Assembly (NCBI GenBank): GCA_016285265.1
Contig: JAEEQL010000014.1
Coordinates: forward strand, 1-35,220
Reading direction: 5' to 3'
Source: Lachnospiraceae bacterium
Lineage (GTDB): Bacteria > Bacillota > Clostridia > Lachnospirales > Lachnospiraceae
DNA length: 35,220 nucleotides
Positions 1,691 through 31,155 of the stretch are shown here, piece by piece (the first letter of the stretch is position 1; every line of letters begins with the position of its first letter). The translations under genes were made by a program, and so were the position numbers. Below the pieces are notes generated by a model. It did not search any database and was not told the origin of the DNA. It was given only the letters and a program-made list of their open reading frames with translations.

Positions 1691-3490
1691 TCAGACAGCT
1701 TTGATATCCGCGCCTTCGTACCTTCCGGCCTGAACCTTCCACATTCCGGCGTATTTTCCGCCGAGTGCAAGGAGGCTTTCATGAGTGCCTTCCTCAACTA
1801 TGCGTCCGTTTTCGAGCATTATGATACGGTCCGCATCCCTCGTGGTCGAAAGTCTGTGGGATATATAGAACACGGTCTTGCCCTCTGCGGCGGATTCCAT
1901 CGCTTTATTGAGTTCATACTCCGCGATCGGATCGAGTGCCGAACTGGGCTCATCCATTATCAGTATATCAGCATCCTTGAAAAATGCGCGTGAAATTGCA
2001 ATTTTCTGACTTTCGCCACCGGAGAAGTTCACACCGTCTTCATCAAACTCAGCGGTAACCTGCGTATCGAGTCCCTTCGGAAGCTTCTTCAGACGTCTGG
2101 CAAATCCCGCCTTTTCCAGAGCGGAGAGTATCATCTCCCTGTCCTTAGACTCATCGCTCATAACGACGTTCTCGGCAAGTGAAGCTCCGTACATCTGGTA
2201 ATCCTGGAATACAACTCCGATCCTTCTTCTGTAATCGTAAGGGCTGTAATCCCTGATATCCCTTCCGTGATAGGTTATCTTTCCGGCTGTCGGATCGTAC
2301 AGTCTCATAAGCAGTTTGATGAGCGTTGTCTTACCCGCTCCGTTATATCCGACGATCGCTATCTTTTCTCCGGGTGATACCTTGAGCGATATGCCCTTGA
2401 GGGTTTCTCCCGCCTTTTCTTCGTACGCAAAGCTTACATTATCAATGACAAGCTCACCGTTTCCTTTCGGAACCTTCTCACCTTCGAACGGCTTGATCAC
2501 GGGCTCGTAATCGAGGAATGCCCTGATCTTGTCGATGTAGAGACTGTTTTCCTGGGCCTGGGGGAATATCTCCGCTATGCCTGCCATACCTCTTCTCAAG
2601 CTTCCCGTTCTGTTAAAAAGAACGACGGCATTACTGTAATCGATGGTATGAAGCACGGCTGCCTGAAACACAAGGTATGTGATGTAGAGACCGTCCATGA
2701 TGAAGTCACCTATCACATAATCTCTTGTAAAGGTAAGGAAGGATCTCTTTCCTCCGACCTTCTCCTGCTCTTTTACTATATCGTCGTTGGCTTCGTCGAA
2801 TTCCTTTTCGAGGGAATCGCCTACAGCGGGGTGAAGCCTTAATTCCTTCGCATAATCATTCAGATAGAAAACCCTGCTGACGTAATTTCTCTTTCTTTCG
2901 AGAGGATTGACCTTGAGCCTTACATCGTAGTTGAGTTTGTTGATCTTCTTGGCGACGATGAAGCGAAGTATCAGCGATGCCGTTACGAAGAGAATACCGG
3001 TCGCATTGGTCACCAGGTAGAAAACTCCTGTCGTAAAGACGATCGTGAGTGCCTCCATAATGCTCTTGCACATCGCAAGGAATCTGTCTATCGAGCTTTC
3101 CGCCTCGGCAACCGCAAGCACGAAGTCATTGTAGTATTCGGGGTCATCGTAGCAGGAAAGATCTATCTCTGCAGCCTTCGCATACATCTGTTCCTTCAGT
3201 GCGCGGTAAAGCTTAGGCTTGCATCTGAAGCTCCATCCGTGGATGAAGAATCCGTCGGGAACGATCTGGATCATATTGATCACAAGGATGATGCCGATGA
3301 AAAGGAGCGCCTTCCAGAACGGCTCATTATACTCCGCACAGTGAAGCACGTAACGTATTCCCAGAACATGCTCGAGGAAGATTATTCCCTGATACCTGAA
3401 TCCGTCGTAAAGGAAATAGATCATGTATCCGGGACATGTCTTAAAGCACAGGTTCCATAAGAAGAGCTGGTTCTTCCATACTTTCTTCAT
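1691..3490 (-). CDS. ABC exporter half-transporter (TMD-NBD), subunit 2
   Basis: This 599-residue half-transporter has an N-terminal membrane domain (about residues 1-320) fused to an ATPase domain. The nucleotide-binding motifs are complete: Walker A GYNGAGKTT (381-389), Q-loop FQD (428-430), signature FSGGE (489-493), Walker B ILIMDEP with the catalytic Glu (509-515), and the switch His in SHR (about 545). Its ATG overlaps the stop of the upstream exporter gene by 4 bp (ATGA at 3487-3490), so the two are translationally coupled and probably form a heterodimer. No substrate gene is nearby, so the cargo (peptide, drug or lipid) is unknown. The type IV exporter architecture is clear. Confidence 0.92.
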   Translation of the reverse strand: MKKVWKNQLFLWNLCFKTCPGYMIYFLYDGFRYQGIIFLEHVLGIRYVLHCAEYNEPFWKALLFIGIILVINMIQIVPDGFFIHGWSFRCKPKLYRALKEQMYAKAAEIDLSCYDDPEYYNDFVLAVAEAESSIDRFLAMCKSIMEALTIVFTTGVFYLVTNATGILFVTASLILRFIVAKKINKLNYDVRLKVNPLERKRNYVSRVFYLNDYAKELRLHPAVGDSLEKEFDEANDDIVKEQEKVGGKRSFLTFTRDYVIGDFIMDGLYITYLVFQAAVLHTIDYSNAVVLFNRTGSLRRGMAGIAEIFPQAQENSLYIDKIRAFLDYEPVIKPFEGEKVPKGNGELVIDNVSFAYEEKAGETLKGISLKVSPGEKIAIVGYNGAGKTTLIKLLMRLYDPTAGKITYHGRDIRDYSPYDYRRRIGVVFQDYQMYGASLAENVVMSDESKDREMILSALEKAGFARRLKKLPKGLDTQVTAEFDEDGVNFSGGESQKIAISRAFFKDADILIMDEPSSALDPIAEYELNKAMESAAEGKTVFYISHRLSTTRDADRIIMLENGRIVEEGTHESLLALGGKYAGMWKVQAGRYEGADIKAV

Positions 3491-5352
3491 ACGGCTTCAC
3501 CTCCTTCCGCAGATTCTTCGGAACTTTCGCCGGAGCTGAGCGCAAGGTAATTGACCGCCTGCTTTCTGTACATATCGGCATAGATACCGTTCATATCCAT
3601 CAGCATCCTGTGAGACCCCGCCTCGGCAACGGTCTTGCCTGAGAGCAGGTATACCCAGTCGGCATTCTGTACCGAAGATAATCTGTGTGATATGAATATG
3701 AGCGTGTTATCCCTGCACGATTCGTATATGTTGTCGAAAAGCTCGGATTCAGCGATCGGGTCAAGTGCGGAGCTGGGCTCGTCGAATATCTTGATGGGGC
3801 ATTCCTTCACAAACGCTCTTGCAACAACGATCTTCTGGAATTCACCTCCCGAAAGCACGGCACCTTCATCGTCGAACTCATGTGTGAGTATGGTGTGTGG
3901 TCCCTTCGAAAGTGACATTACCTTGTCATATGCACCTGAAAGCTTAAGGGCCTCGGTTACCTTTTCTTCCTTTTCGGAAGGATCGATATTCTCACCCATC
4001 ACGACATTGTCTATGACCGACATCGAGAACATTCTGTGATCCTGGAACGCAGTCGCAAAAAGTGCACGGTATTTATGCAGGTCATATTCCCTGATGTCGC
4101 GTCCGTTCAAAAGGATCACTCCTTCCGTAGGATCGTAGAACCTGAGCAGGAGCTTTATGAGCGTGGTCTTGCCCGCACCGTTATGTCCGACAAGTGCGTA
4201 GGTCTTGCCTCCGCGGAATTCCATGTTCAGATGGGAGAGAACTTCCTTGTCCTTGTATGAGAATGAAACATCCTTAAACTCTATGCTTTTGATCTCCGTT
4301 CCGGGATCGTCGCCTGCGGTATCCTCGGGAATCCTTTCCTTATACTCAAGGAAGCTTCTCAGATACTCAACAAACAGACCGTTCTGGAAAAGAGCGGTAA
4401 GTGATTCCGTAAATCCGATCAGTATCCATGTGGTGGAGACCATCATGCTCGTGATGACGGAGAGCTGTGCCAGAGTCATCGTATGGCTTACAACAGTCCT
4501 GTATGCTCCGTAGATAAGAAGTCCTTCGAAGATGAATGTGAATGTGAACATGACCGTCATCCAGTGAAGGAATACAGCCTTCTTCGTATACTTCTTAGTT
4601 ACATCGGCAAGGCCGGTTATCGCTTCGTTGTACTGTCTCTTCATCAGCCTGAAGACATCGGTAAGTCTCATCTCCTTCGCATACTCGGTCAGATACATTA
4701 CACGGTTGATATATGCGATCCTTCTGTTATGAGGCGCCATATCCTTGTTTCTCGCATAATCAAGATGCGAGTTCATTCTTTTGAATACGAAGTTTCCGAT
4801 TATCGGGAAAAGAATGAAAAGGACGGATATCTTGTCCACCTGGTACATAAAGGCGAATGCAAATACGCTGGCGATCGCACCGAACACCGTTCCGAATACC
4901 ACCTCCACGGTCTGTATCAGTCTCTCGTCGGCCTTCTCCATCGCAAGAGTATATTTATTGTAGAATTCGCTGTCCTCGAAGCATTCAAGCTCCACATTTC
5001 TGGACTTTCTGAAAAGCTTACGGTAGACGCCCTTGTTTATCACGGCCCTGGCCACGGGGATGATCTTTCCGTTCAGTACCGCGTTGTAAAGACTCATCGA
5101 ACCGAATACAACGGTGACCACGATGATGAAGATCATGATCCTCGAAAATTCCTGCCCGGTTTCAAGTGCGTTGATGACAAAGCGCATAAAAAATGCACTG
5201 TAAAACAGCCATTCAAAATATCCGAGGAATCTGCTGATTGCCTTATGCACTACAAACCTCGGACAAATGCGCATCACAAGACGACAGGCAAAGATATTGT
5301 TCTCTAATGCCCTGCCCCTTCCGATCTCTCTTTTTTTCTTTTTGTCGCTCAT
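3487..5352 (-). CDS. ABC exporter half-transporter (TMD-NBD), subunit 1
   Basis: This 621-residue half-transporter is the first gene of its operon. The membrane domain covers about residues 1-340. The ATPase domain has Walker A GHNGAGKTT (389-397), Q-loop FQD, signature LSGGE (500-504), Walker B IKIFDEP with catalytic Glu, and SHR (about 555). Both subunits therefore keep apparently intact ATP sites, unlike many heterodimeric exporters in which one site is degenerate. The N-terminus is very basic (KKKKR) before the first membrane helix, and the C-terminus is Ser/Glu-rich. The start has an AAGGATGG ribosome site and a good sigma-A type promoter upstream (5385-5413). The downstream gene overlaps by 4 bp. 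Confidence 0.92.
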   Translation of the reverse strand: MSDKKKKREIGRGRALENNIFACRLVMRICPRFVVHKAISRFLGYFEWLFYSAFFMRFVINALETGQEFSRIMIFIIVVTVVFGSMSLYNAVLNGKIIPVARAVINKGVYRKLFRKSRNVELECFEDSEFYNKYTLAMEKADERLIQTVEVVFGTVFGAIASVFAFAFMYQVDKISVLFILFPIIGNFVFKRMNSHLDYARNKDMAPHNRRIAYINRVMYLTEYAKEMRLTDVFRLMKRQYNEAITGLADVTKKYTKKAVFLHWMTVMFTFTFIFEGLLIYGAYRTVVSHTMTLAQLSVITSMMVSTTWILIGFTESLTALFQNGLFVEYLRSFLEYKERIPEDTAGDDPGTEIKSIEFKDVSFSYKDKEVLSHLNMEFRGGKTYALVGHNGAGKTTLIKLLLRFYDPTEGVILLNGRDIREYDLHKYRALFATAFQDHRMFSMSVIDNVVMGENIDPSEKEEKVTEALKLSGAYDKVMSLSKGPHTILTHEFDDEGAVLSGGEFQKIVVARAFVKECPIKIFDEPSSALDPIAESELFDNIYESCRDNTLIFISHRLSSVQNADWVYLLSGKTVAEAGSHRMLMDMNGIYADMYRKQAVNYLALSSGESSEESAEGGEAV

Positions 5353-27938: not shown

Positions 27939-29570
27939 TCATTTTTTGTCATTGACCGGGCCGACGATCTCCTCATAAAGATCGAGTCCGAAGCTGGTAA
28001 GCTCGGGTGCGTGGGGGATCATGCGGAATGTCCTGCGCCCGTCCTCTTTTCTCTCGGCGGAAAGGAACTGCACTCCGGATTCCGGACGCCCCTGCGTCTC
28101 ATCATGCATTCGCCTCGCAAAGGAAAGAAGATGCGTGACCGTAAGTATCTTAACGCCCGATTCCCTGAGCGCCCTGATTATGTCGTATGCAATGACGGAG
28201 CCTTCCTTTTCCGTCGTGGTTGCGAAGGATTCGTTCAAAAGGACAAGCGATCCGTCACCGATCCGGTCGATGATACCGCTCATTCGTTTCAGCTCTTCAT
28301 CGAGCCTTCCGCTGTTCATCTCGCTGTCTTCCCTGCGGGTGAAGTGAACGAAGAGATTCGGGAATATCCCGCTTGAGAATGATTTCGCCATTACGGGAAG
28401 TCCGCACTGCATCATGACCTGTGCGATACCTATACTCCTTAAGAAGGTTGATTTGCCTCCCTGGTTGGCTCCGGTGATGATAACAAGATCCTTACCCGCA
28501 AGGGACATCGTGTTTCCGACAACCGTGACATGATGCTGCATCGACATCACGAGTTCCCTGAGTTCTTCAAACTTCAGATCATTCCGGTCGCAGACCCCGG
28601 GATAGCACCACTCTCCGCCGACTCTTTCCATCTGCTCTTTGAGCTGTACCGCTGCCAGATAGAATGCGCTCTGGAACCTCAGCCTGTCAAAGAAAGTACG
28701 GAACTCTTCAAGCTCGCTCTTAAGCTCCTCCGTGATATAGCTTACTATTCCAAATTCAAGCTGCTGTACCTGCTCGTCGATATTCTGGTCTCCCACCGTG
28801 GAAAACGAATCCGGTGTCAGGGAGTTTTTGAATTCACGGATCTTGTACTTGGCACTTCCGCGCTTATAGAATTTCTCGCTTCGGGATGATACTTCCTCAA
28901 GCTTAAGAGAGCTGAATTTCAGTCCGTCCTCAAGTCCGCTCTCCATCACGATCCTCGGTCTTACGACCTGCTCTCGCCCCTCATCCTCTTCATCCGATCC
29001 GTCCGTGTAAAAGGAAATATCTCCGAGAACACTCTTCACAAATTCTTCGCGTTCCGCGGAATATGTCTTCAGAAACTCTGTTTTGAAAGCACCCAGTCCG
29101 GCGGAACTTAAGTCATCACGCTCCGACAAAAGCGTTCTTATCGCCGAGAGCGAATCGATGAACAGATGCAGAACCTTTATATCTTCCGTAAGTCTTGTAA
29201 CGGGATTGCTCTGCTGAAGTTTTTCCCTTCCGCCTCTTCCGAGCGTGTTCCACTTGCGGATCACATCACTGCAGATCTCGTACAGAGAACGTATAAGTTC
29301 CTCGTGTGAGATGCAGTCCTTAATTATCTCCTGACGGAACTTTATCTCACCTGCGGACTCAAGCGGGATCATCATGACATTCCTGAGAGTCTCCATCAGA
29401 TAAGTGTCTTCTTTTTCGACGCTCTTAAGCTTTCCGTTTTCGAATACAAGCCTCTTGGCTGCGGAAAGGATGAGCGTCTTTAATCCGAGGTCGCCGATTA
29501 TGCTCTCGGTATCATAATATTTTTCTCTCTCAGACCTTTCGCGGTCCTTATATAACAGGCATACCTTCAT
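27939..29570 (-). CDS. MutS-like ATPase (second of tandem pair)
   Basis: The 543-residue product has the core lever/clamp helices and ATPase of the MutS family but no N-terminal mismatch-binding or connector domain. Walker A is TGANQGGKST (366-375), Walker B SLVLLNESFATT (441-452), and the His loop TVTH (477-480). The first 350 residues are helical and charged. It is longer than the ATPase core alone but much shorter than MutS (about 850) and lacks the Smr domain of MutS2. Its ATG overlaps the stop of the neighbouring MutS-like gene by 4 bp, so the two are translationally coupled and probably form a heterodimer. The role is unknown; branched-DNA or nucleoprotein remodelling is a guess. Confidence 0.88.
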   Translation of the reverse strand: MKVCLLYKDRERSEREKYYDTESIIGDLGLKTLILSAAKRLVFENGKLKSVEKEDTYLMETLRNVMMIPLESAGEIKFRQEIIKDCISHEELIRSLYEICSDVIRKWNTLGRGGREKLQQSNPVTRLTEDIKVLHLFIDSLSAIRTLLSERDDLSSAGLGAFKTEFLKTYSAEREEFVKSVLGDISFYTDGSDEEDEGREQVVRPRIVMESGLEDGLKFSSLKLEEVSSRSEKFYKRGSAKYKIREFKNSLTPDSFSTVGDQNIDEQVQQLEFGIVSYITEELKSELEEFRTFFDRLRFQSAFYLAAVQLKEQMERVGGEWCYPGVCDRNDLKFEELRELVMSMQHHVTVVGNTMSLAGKDLVIITGANQGGKSTFLRSIGIAQVMMQCGLPVMAKSFSSGIFPNLFVHFTRREDSEMNSGRLDEELKRMSGIIDRIGDGSLVLLNESFATTTEKEGSVIAYDIIRALRESGVKILTVTHLLSFARRMHDETQGRPESGVQFLSAERKEDGRRTFRMIPHAPELTSFGLDLYEEIVGPVNDKK

Positions 29571-31096
29571 AAGCGCTCCTTCAGCTGCTCGTATGTCAGC
29601 CTGTATTTATTCACGACATTTTCCGCACATGCGGTATCATCCGCTTCGCCCCTTACGATCCTGTAGGTCTGAACCCTGTGATCATCCAGCGTTGCCTTGA
29701 GGCTTACAACGCCTTCGCCCGCAGAACAGAGTTCGCGAAGATGCGTGACATAGATGCCCATGCATCCAAGGGCCATAAAATGCTCCAGCACGTTCCTTCC
29801 CATGATCTCCGCATCATAGCTCGCCGCAGTCGTGAAGAGTTCGTTGATGACCACGAAGGTTCCATACTTTTGCTGTTCCATCATCGGAGCGAGCCTCACA
29901 AGCTCCTCTTTAAGTTTTCCGCGTCCCGTCTCAACACTTTCCTCTACGGAAAAGTGCGTCTGAATATCCGGGAAGAAAGGAACGTTTGCGGACTCAGCCG
30001 GAACATCGAATCCCATCTGCGCAAGGTAAACGAGCTGCCCGAGACTTCTTGCAAATGTCGTCTTGCCGCCCTGATTGGGACCCGTAAGCACAAAGAACTT
30101 CTCACCGGCTTCATATCCGAAATCATTCGGAACGACTTCTTTGTCCTTGGCCCTGTTGGCAAGCGCAAGGGCCATATCGTATAGTCCCTTTGCTTCCATT
30201 CTCTTACCCTCATCCGTCTCCGGCTCGGTGAACTTAAAGCCCGACTCTTCCATGTCGATCTGAAGCGATCGGTAGGACAGATAGAAGATAACTTCCCTTT
30301 CGAATCTGTGCAGTACTTCCTTTTCATACCCTTCGGACATCTCTGCGGTCTGTTCGATCAGTGCAAAGATCCCGGGCTTTTTCTTCTGTATGATCTCCAG
30401 ACAGGATTTTTCGATCTCTGTAAGCGTGGGATCCGCGATGAAAGGATTCCGGAGGCTTCTTACTTCCCCGCCTCTCTTTTCCCTGAGCATCTTACCGTAG
30501 CTTCCTTCATCCGGTAATTCTTTCAGTTCCACGCTCATCCTGTCCCTGTCATATGTGATCACAAAGCGGAGCGCCCTTATCTCTTCAAGCGTCTTTTCTA
30601 TCTGCTCCCGCAGTCTTCGGTATTCAACGCTTTCGAGTATCTCCTTCAGAGCGGAAAGGAAACCCTTCATTCCGCCTGAAGTAAGCCCTGCGGATTCCAG
30701 CGACTTTGCAAGCTCTTCATAGACATCACAATACGATCCGACCTCCCTTATCTGCCAGACGTATCTTTGCAGAGGGATGCGGACCTTTTCTTTTTCCCTG
30801 CGGATGTTTTCGATTTTCTCAAGATCTTCGGTGAATTTTACGAGCGCCGCATATACTTCATCCTTCCTGATGTCCCTGTATACGGCACGGCGATAAGAAA
30901 CTTCCTCCGGAGACTGAGGAATATACCTGAAATACTTTTTGACGTCCCTGCCCCATTTGACGGTGAGTCTGTCTATCACCTGATCCAGATTCAGATCCCG
31001 GAAAAATGGTGCGGACTCCAGGGGCTCGAATTCCCTTGAATCGGGGTTCAGTATACTGAACCCCGCCGTGTTGTCACTTGATGCTCTGTTCCCCAT
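29567..31096 (-). CDS. MutS-like ATPase (first of tandem pair)
   Basis: The product of about 509 residues resembles its partner in layout but not closely in sequence. Walker A is TGPNQGGKTT (338-347), Walker B GTFVVINELFTTA (about 412-424) and the His loop YVTHLREL. The N-terminal 330 residues are helical with coiled-coil character and no mismatch-recognition domain. The frame runs to 31129, but a -10 (TAGAAT at 31128-31133) overlaps that ATG, and GAGGG lies 6 bases before the ATG at 31096. It is co-transcribed with the partner. Neither MutL nor other repair genes lie nearby. Confidence 0.88.
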   Translation of the reverse strand: MGNRASSDNTAGFSILNPDSREFEPLESAPFFRDLNLDQVIDRLTVKWGRDVKKYFRYIPQSPEEVSYRRAVYRDIRKDEVYAALVKFTEDLEKIENIRREKEKVRIPLQRYVWQIREVGSYCDVYEELAKSLESAGLTSGGMKGFLSALKEILESVEYRRLREQIEKTLEEIRALRFVITYDRDRMSVELKELPDEGSYGKMLREKRGGEVRSLRNPFIADPTLTEIEKSCLEIIQKKKPGIFALIEQTAEMSEGYEKEVLHRFEREVIFYLSYRSLQIDMEESGFKFTEPETDEGKRMEAKGLYDMALALANRAKDKEVVPNDFGYEAGEKFFVLTGPNQGGKTTFARSLGQLVYLAQMGFDVPAESANVPFFPDIQTHFSVEESVETGRGKLKEELVRLAPMMEQQKYGTFVVINELFTTAASYDAEIMGRNVLEHFMALGCMGIYVTHLRELCSAGEGVVSLKATLDDHRVQTYRIVRGEADDTACAENVVNKYRLTYEQLKERL

Positions 31097-31127
31097 GAAA
31101 TACCCTCTGTTTCTCCCCCGTATTTTC

Positions 31128-31155
31128 ATTCTAACAGATTAAGCGGGTATTTCAA
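31128..31155 (-). promoter_or_regulatory. Promoter of the MutS-like pair
   Basis: On the minus strand, -35 TTGAAA (31150-31155) and -10 TAGAAT (31128-31133) are separated by 16 bp. The TSS is about 25 bases before the chosen start codon. Confidence 0.68.

Follow-up and report, generated by a model that had tools for sequence, protein, structure and literature searches.

What do two adjacent MutS-like genes do in a gut bacterium when neither encodes the part of MutS that recognizes mismatches? The question is raised by a 35,220-nucleotide stretch of a Lachnospiraceae bacterium assembly (contig JAEEQL010000014.1; "the window" below means this whole stretch), in which a first-pass annotation had picked out two neighboring MutS-type ATPase genes, here called A and B. 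It had proposed that they form an obligate heterodimer, like eukaryotic MSH4-MSH5 in principle, with recombination intermediates, replication forks or invading DNA as candidate targets. Taken as a whole, this interpretation is partly supported. The pairing of A and B is very probable, and in other Bacillota, Actinomycetota and Proteobacteria the pair often lies behind fluoride riboswitches, near enolase, crcB and pyrophosphatase genes.

The pairing is seen in every set of genomes that we searched. Strong matches to A (at least 184 bits) occur at 21 places in 16 of 299 genomes of the same family, with two copies in five of them; strong matches to B (at least 171 bits) occur in the same 16 genomes and in one more (G288), whose B begins at a contig end. 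A has B as its immediate neighbor at 20 of these 21 places, the other lying at a contig end, and the gene order is reversed at one locus (L092), with B preceding A. In a species-level collection, which has some genomes in common with the family set, B directly follows A at 79 of the best 80 A loci of 359 relatives (a few B being clipped by the contig end), and at the 80th A runs off the contig. When 391 genomes from the class are compared, the top-scoring matches to A and to B fall together, two cases excepted: A lies at a contig end in G612, and in G380 a stump of B stands beside what looks by eye like an IS30-like transposase. Among plasmid records, 46 contain A and 50 contain B. Judged by their coordinates, 44 A rows (including a truncated A) adjoin a B row, and at a 45th the annotation shows an adjacent B split over two frames. 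Four B records lack an A row: three of these are partial copies (20–45% of B), and the fourth is a Rhodococcus B with a shortened start. An intact A or B standing alone was not found in the family set, the class set, the best 80 loci of the species-level collection or the plasmid records.

Several copies are irregular. At L245:5253-6317, B is shortened next to an apparent IS30-like transposase (identified by eye), and a fluoride riboswitch flanks the stump on its opposite side. Inside B of L082 (near 8504) and of L246 (near 1504), 21 bases that match an Illumina adapter replace the Walker-B region, probably an assembly artefact. A Rubrobacter plasmid A (L251:6255-7890) and a Burkholderia plasmid B (L269:7533-9081) are annotated in two pieces and may be decayed or misread. 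In G503 (L217:6803-9483), the A and B frames are short, about 383 and 377 amino acids, with a riboswitch upstream; this pair is possibly a decaying copy.

The host genome itself carries a second A-B pair (L008:1918-3414 and 3411-5033, contig C67), also with a 4-nucleotide overlap. Between the two host pairs the identity is 41% for A with A and 44% for B with B, compared with about 24% between A and B, indicating that A and B are two old families, each present twice. This agrees with the earlier remark that the two proteins are clearly different, and in two phylogenetic trees A and B form separate clades across the sampled species. A sister family of single genes, S, includes in the same class a natural 1116-amino-acid tandem fusion of two complete MutS-core units (L225:4038-7388). 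Together with the co-occurrence, the second host pair, the separate clades and the fusion strongly support an obligate A-B pair, as first proposed. That the two proteins form a heterodimer is a well-supported inference from the genetic linkage. We also considered that A and B form no complex and are two homodimers kept together by the operon. Operon linkage by itself can hold genes together, and the related single-gene proteins must be homomers or have an unlinked partner. Such an arrangement is nevertheless very unlikely in view of the fusion and the lack of intact lone genes in the sets searched. The two proteins also differ in a constant way: column counts show a steady GKL in the signature loop of A versus GRL in that of B, and in the fluoride-branch pairs examined a histidine is lost in A and kept in B.

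The ATGA that joins the two genes was confirmed (see the table below), and its exact 4-nucleotide length recurs in 58 of the 79 pairs from the best 80 loci. All but one of these (57 of 58) have a Shine-Dalgarno-like motif inside A, at most 20 nucleotides before B, compared with 332 of 1600 random places inside A. In the window, the codons of LKERL, the C-terminal end of A, provide this motif. An overlap with an embedded ribosome site naturally suggests that translation of B is coupled to that of A.

Both proteins retain the MutS core and have altered catalytic motifs. The Walker A motifs and signature loops originally reported (ETGRGKLKEEL in A and SEMNSGRLDEEL in B) were confirmed in the sequence, and MutS_V is the sole Pfam match above cut-off in each protein. 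Neither A nor B has a Pfam match to Smr or to mismatch domains I and II, and the predicted models agree that domains I and II are missing. Residues 34–520 of the A model and 12–531 of the B model match MutS domains III–V; the models start at the MutS core (about residue 260 of E. coli MutS) and suggest a core-lever-clamp-ATPase layout without domains I and II, as in MutS2. In the predicted models the clamp is cut down to a hairpin, about 12 residues long in A and 33 in B. The ribosome-bound MutS2 structure 7qv3 is among the structural matches of the models, in a list that cannot exclude families outside it. Column counts in alignments of A (A4, 65 relatives of the 80 loci) and B (A5, 63 relatives) show NE in place of DE at Walker B and a G-K/R-L trans loop in place of the STF type. 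PF00488 scores above its gathering threshold, and Walker A and the predicted MutS fold are present; kinship to the MutS superfamily holds despite the NE and G-K/R-L changes because it is based on the fold and the family score.

Table. Positions of the A and B genes and their motifs in the window
Feature	Position	Strand	Observation
Gene A	29567..31129	minus	520-amino-acid MutS-core ATPase; MutS_V above Pfam cut-off
Gene B	27939..29570	minus	543-amino-acid MutS-core ATPase; MutS_V above Pfam cut-off
Walker A of A, TGPNQGGKTT	30056..30085	minus	K in 66/66 aligned A rows
Walker A of B, TGANQGGKST	28446..28475	minus	K in 64/64 aligned B rows
ATGA, A stop and B start overlap	29567..29570	minus	Sequence; 4-nucleotide overlap in 58/79 relatives
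AAGGAG, Shine-Dalgarno-like, for B	29576..29581	minus	Inside last codons of A

Along the minus strand A is upstream and B follows. The start of A had first been placed at 31096, which is an internal ATG of the longer frame (MGNRAS..., giving 509 amino acids). This alternative to 31129 is plausible, and the likelier of the two: it is the start used by an 83%-identical sister gene, and GAGGG lies just 5' of it. The A of the sister isolate Lachnospiraceae AC2028 is 83% identical to that of the window.

Do A and B belong to a characterized MutS subfamily? MutS1 has domains I and II before the core, which the A and B models lack, and A and B score 57–67 bits against curated MutS1 cut-offs of 480 and 641.7. 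MutS2 is a homodimer with Smr, an STF loop and DE, whereas A and B are a pair without Smr, with NE and without an STF loop; their MutS2 scores are 82.9 and 59.5 bits against a cut-off of 400. KamC (NF052383, lysine 5,6-aminomutase reactivase ATPase), a MutS core of about 510 amino acids like A and B, is among their best NCBIfam matches, at 80.9 and 74.3 bits against a cut-off of 300. A true KamC (L233) scores 636 bits and, unlike A and B, keeps the DE and STF/SSF motifs and falls on its own branch. KamC membership, which the NCBIfam matches had made a likely candidate, was rejected on score, motifs and tree. The host genome has no KamC above cut-off, and no lysine 5,6-aminomutase was found among the 10 neighboring open reading frames scanned, the rest of the window and genome not having been searched.

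In the trees, a branch with support values of 99 and 100 separates A, B and S from MutS1, MutS2 and KamC, with the root set by us on the A/B/S branch. By scores and tree, A and B thus lie outside all three subfamilies. The two trees disagree on whether A and B are sisters or S lies between them. The later one omitted L229, both genes of L221, L089_B, a membrane MutS-like row, 14 of 22 single-gene rows and the Rubrobacter plasmid A; in the earlier one, the divergent pair L229 joins by long branches, apart from the main clades of A and of B. The A/B/S group is marked by the Walker-B NE and the G-K/R-L loop. The S family splits at Walker B into DE and NE types (L096-L109), which provide an internal control for the effect of the Asn, and L218 has two adjacent S-like genes in one genome. 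Single MutS core, unequal pair and tandem fusion are therefore all found in one family, giving a bacterial example of this series. Eukaryotic MSH4-MSH5 also consists of two unequal MutS cores. It is described as lacking the mismatch domain in a domain note within the available part of PMC12292046, and A and B resemble it in principle as unequal cores without that domain; the genomic setting of A and B differs. We found nothing in support of the proposed MSH4-MSH5 comparison or of a DNA target, and the fluoride-gene context points elsewhere.

This context is seen best on plasmids. Plasmid records with A come from Klebsiella, Rhodococcus, Enterobacter, Citrobacter, Burkholderia, Salmonella, Caballeronia, Rubrobacter, Alicyclobacillus and Mycobacterium. 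Nine plasmid stretches contain eno in five cases, a universal stress protein in six, and crcB, pyrophosphatase, DUF190 and cation:proton antiporter genes in three each; P-type ATPase, NUDIX, dynamin and phosphoglycerate mutase genes are also present. An Rfam scan covered seven of these nine stretches and found the fluoride riboswitch RF01734 in every one. The riboswitch lies directly before A in L250, L266 and L267, as it does in contigs L189 and L187; it heads an antiporter-Usp-A-B run in L247 and L248 and is found elsewhere in the cluster in L249 and L251. Homologues of A immediately downstream of RF01734 were found in Bacillota, Rhizobiales, Burkholderia and Mycobacterium records, with B adjacent where checked.

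We also looked for the riboswitch in 39 genomes that carry A-B or their kin. Outside the family, 16 A loci have a profile E of 1e-100 or better, and 12 of them have RF01734 on the same strand within 410 bp before A. In G339 the riboswitch overlaps the longest reading of A, and in G339 and G796 it scores just under the gathering threshold. Two further loci (G909, G764) have it 1.6–1.7 kb upstream. B stands beside A at 8 of the 14 riboswitch loci, these eight being all the loci checked. In the tree, 12 fluoride-linked A rows and 13 B rows form one branch each, sister to the window's rows; these branches also hold L092 and L094, which have no riboswitch nearby.

Some loci in these sets have unusual features. 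L189, from a metagenome-assembled genome labelled Rhizobiales, has A-B with two divergent fluoride riboswitches and represents either horizontal transfer or a binning error. A dynamin-family gene lies near A-B on a chromosome of the window's class (L215:10053-11861) and on Burkholderia plasmids (L266:12092-14209, L269:9126-11231), and is possibly another member of the fluoride response. L252 (MT837116.1) is a 7.7-kb clone deposited as Bacteriophage sp., in which the A query matches in two pieces over 2.8 kb; it has no Rfam match, RF01734 included, and is perhaps bacterial DNA.

A gene called mutS has been on record under the crcB motif (now RF01734) since 2010: in the available text of Weinberg et al. 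(2010; PMC2864571), the motif precedes genes including mutS and is suggested to respond to DNA-damaging stress. The A-B pair is apparently this gene. That text treats it as a single mutS for DNA repair and describes no pair, whereas our evidence indicates two unequal MutS cores that form an obligate pair, carry changed ATPase motifs and differ from the MutS of mismatch repair. The fluoride operon of Enterobacter cloacae FRM comprises ppaC, uspA, eno, gpmA, crcB and a cation ATPase, according to the accessible part of PMC5533749. The A-B pair on an Enterobacter plasmid adjoins the same kinds of genes, and the term mutS occurs 0 times in that accessible text. Exporters, pH control and additional copies of enzymes that fluoride inhibits make up most of the clusters that we read and of the FRM operon (PMC5533749, available part). 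In literature searches for the pair or for fluoride with MutS, only PMC2864571 gave the riboswitch link, and no paper was found that describes the pair or the function of the crcB-motif mutS.

We suggest, tentatively and at somewhat less than even likelihood for the statement as a whole, that A and B form a clamp of unequal halves, gated by ATP, and that this clamp remodels a protein or ribonucleoprotein that has become trapped, in the window's branch as well. The two proteins would be unequal subunits of one obligate MutS-core ATPase, each retaining core, levers, reduced clamp and ATPase domain, having lost mismatch recognition and Smr, and probably made in near-equal amounts through translational coupling. 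The ATPase domains would pair such that the G-K-L loop of A completes the site of B and the G-R-L loop of B that of A. Binding of ATP would close the levers on a bulky target; hydrolysis would then release the target and is probably slow, the Walker-B Asp being replaced by Asn. Since the pair is behind a fluoride riboswitch in many non-gut relatives, the target is most likely something trapped by fluoride stress, such as a nucleotide- or phosphate-bound enzyme or a ribonucleoprotein. It would be remodeled in the manner of KamC or MutS2, rather than as mismatched DNA. MutS2 splits collided ribosomes with the same core fold (PMC12292046, available part), and KamC is named a reactivase by NCBI; a MutS core therefore need not act on DNA, which favors remodeling of a protein or ribonucleoprotein. 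The window's copy, from a gut branch without fluoride control, would probably respond to another trigger and act on a target of the same kind. Because the pair stands behind fluoride riboswitches in many other bacteria, the role of the unexplained mutS in fluoride resistance can be tested directly, with a substrate hypothesis outside DNA.

A number of observations weigh against this mechanism. In the same family, 17 genomes have A or B; in none of them does a riboswitch score above the gathering threshold, and the weak matches in two are away from the pair. Rfam finds no riboswitch in the window, the host genome (91.8% complete) or the sister genome G116. A scan of 100 sources including the window, with a model (R1) that retained 6 base pairs and is close to a sequence model, found the riboswitch in L187 and L189 and in none of the other 98. 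CrcB is present in 5 of the 17 same-family genomes versus 10 of 13 riboswitch genomes (one of the ten under the cut-off), and is absent from the host and G116 (99% complete); CLC channels are absent from all seven genomes tested, these two included. The fluoride clue therefore comes from the sister branch. The window's pair is a member of a fluoride-linked family but shows no sign of belonging to a fluoride regulon. The gut branch also lacks a constant neighbor: an all-against-all comparison of 741 neighboring genes at 110 loci returned mainly abundant families, such as ABC transporters. Outside the family, RF01734 is missing near 2 of the 16 A loci (G612, with A at a contig end, and G515, an S-like pair) and in six genomes whose A or S kin are weaker (G603, G739, G840, G811, G912, G510). 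The likeness of KamC and MutS2 to A and B is loose, as both keep an ordinary STF-type loop and DE. Clamp charge (+2.4 in B, -2.7 in A) did not separate the families, and it was dropped as a clue to DNA binding because single-protein controls for MutS1 and MutS2, near zero, made it uninformative. Lastly, an Exo_endo_phos gene beyond B in L189 and a nuclease-related gene in L250 would fit a DNA substrate.

These two genes bear on the rival view that the heterodimer is a DNA clamp, in the sense of MSH4-MSH5 or MutS2, acting on branched recombination or replication intermediates because fluoride damages DNA. The whole modeled fold of A and B corresponds to the DNA-clamping part of MutS, MutS2 binds junctions (PMC12292046, available part), and a DNA-damaging stress is what Weinberg et al. 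proposed for the motif (PMC2864571, available text). We nevertheless consider a DNA clamp rather unlikely. The nine plasmid stretches contain no MutL or other recognized repair gene, and no repair gene is among the 25 commonest families around six chromosomal loci. LexA boxes upstream of A (8 of 102) show no excess over controls (42 of 600), and CIRCE, CtsR, PerR, Rex and CcpA boxes likewise show no clear excess over control upstream regions. The predicted clamps, moreover, are reduced.

The remodeling reading has a more specific form, which we regard as unlikely: A-B would be a fluoride-damage reactivase, an unequal heterodimer prying open, with ATP, enzymes or GTPases trapped by fluoride or by metal-fluoride mimics of the transition state. 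The Walker-B Asn and the Lys/Arg trans loop might be tuned to tolerate magnesium-fluoride, and the gut branch, freed from fluoride control, would act likewise on another trapped state. If this were true, the MutS fold would be a protein-remodeling machine rather than a DNA reader.

A ribosomal target is an improbable alternative. Metal-fluoride would trap translation GTPases, ribosomes would collide, and A-B would split them as MutS2 does in Bacillus subtilis. The shared core fold, the structural match to ribosome-bound MutS2 and the ribosome splitting by MutS2 cited above are consistent with this idea. An RNB-domain (RNase R-like) gene and an SmpB gene are found among the genes surrounding six fluoride-branch loci, though at a place that is also a common integration site. 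The host already has a MutS2, however, and A and B have neither Smr nor any other extra domain by Pfam, whereas MutS2 is recruited to collided ribosomes by Smr and KOW (PMC12292046, available part).

Could the pair instead be a defence or mobile-element module? Its patchy occurrence in the family, its presence on plasmids and the clone labelled as phage would suit such a role. The PADLOC system mad3 was matched by 6 of 132 neighbors (131 of 146 non-redundant immediate neighbors and one window gene replacing a spurious open reading frame). Yet, apart from mad3, none of the 25 families listed was found in more than two of the 132, counts that have no control set beside them. A and B themselves match PADLOC weakly (best E 0.00045), a viral scan with B gave 78 pattern matches and no relative, and the plasmid copies that we read sit in fluoride clusters. 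A defence or mobile role is highly improbable.

Around the pair in the window, the genes upstream on the strand of A encode an ABC-2 permease, an ABC ATPase, a protein just under the DUF3021 cut-off and a LytTR regulator; downstream of B are an oxidoreductase, an MFS transporter and an aldo/keto reductase. Smr, MutL and nuclease families have no match in the 10 nearby open reading frames scanned, the remaining frames of the window being outside the scan, in line with the first-pass annotation. Its single shared promoter fared less well. The permease gene, on the same strand, ends 67 bp before A if A starts at 31096, or 34 bp if at 31129. A promoter-like site lies just before A (31155-31128), but such sites are equally frequent in shuffled sequence (5 found versus a mean of 5.0); the pair may have a promoter of its own or be read from the ABC genes. 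The second host pair is flanked by an ABC exporter gene upstream and a GGDEF gene downstream. An ABC transporter gene thus precedes both host pairs, with no such rule among relatives. At 26 single-gene loci, the S genes have no constant neighbor.

The host assembly (2.7 Mb) contains seven MutS_V matches: a true MutS1 (1068 and 997 bits with the curated models), a true MutS2 (916 bits), the two A-B pairs and a MutS-like protein with hydrophobic stretches. The last is encoded on the MutS1 contig (L009:13666-15114); its N-terminal half contains the hydrophobic, probably membrane-spanning segments, and many genomes of the family have a MutS_V match in a frame of similar length.

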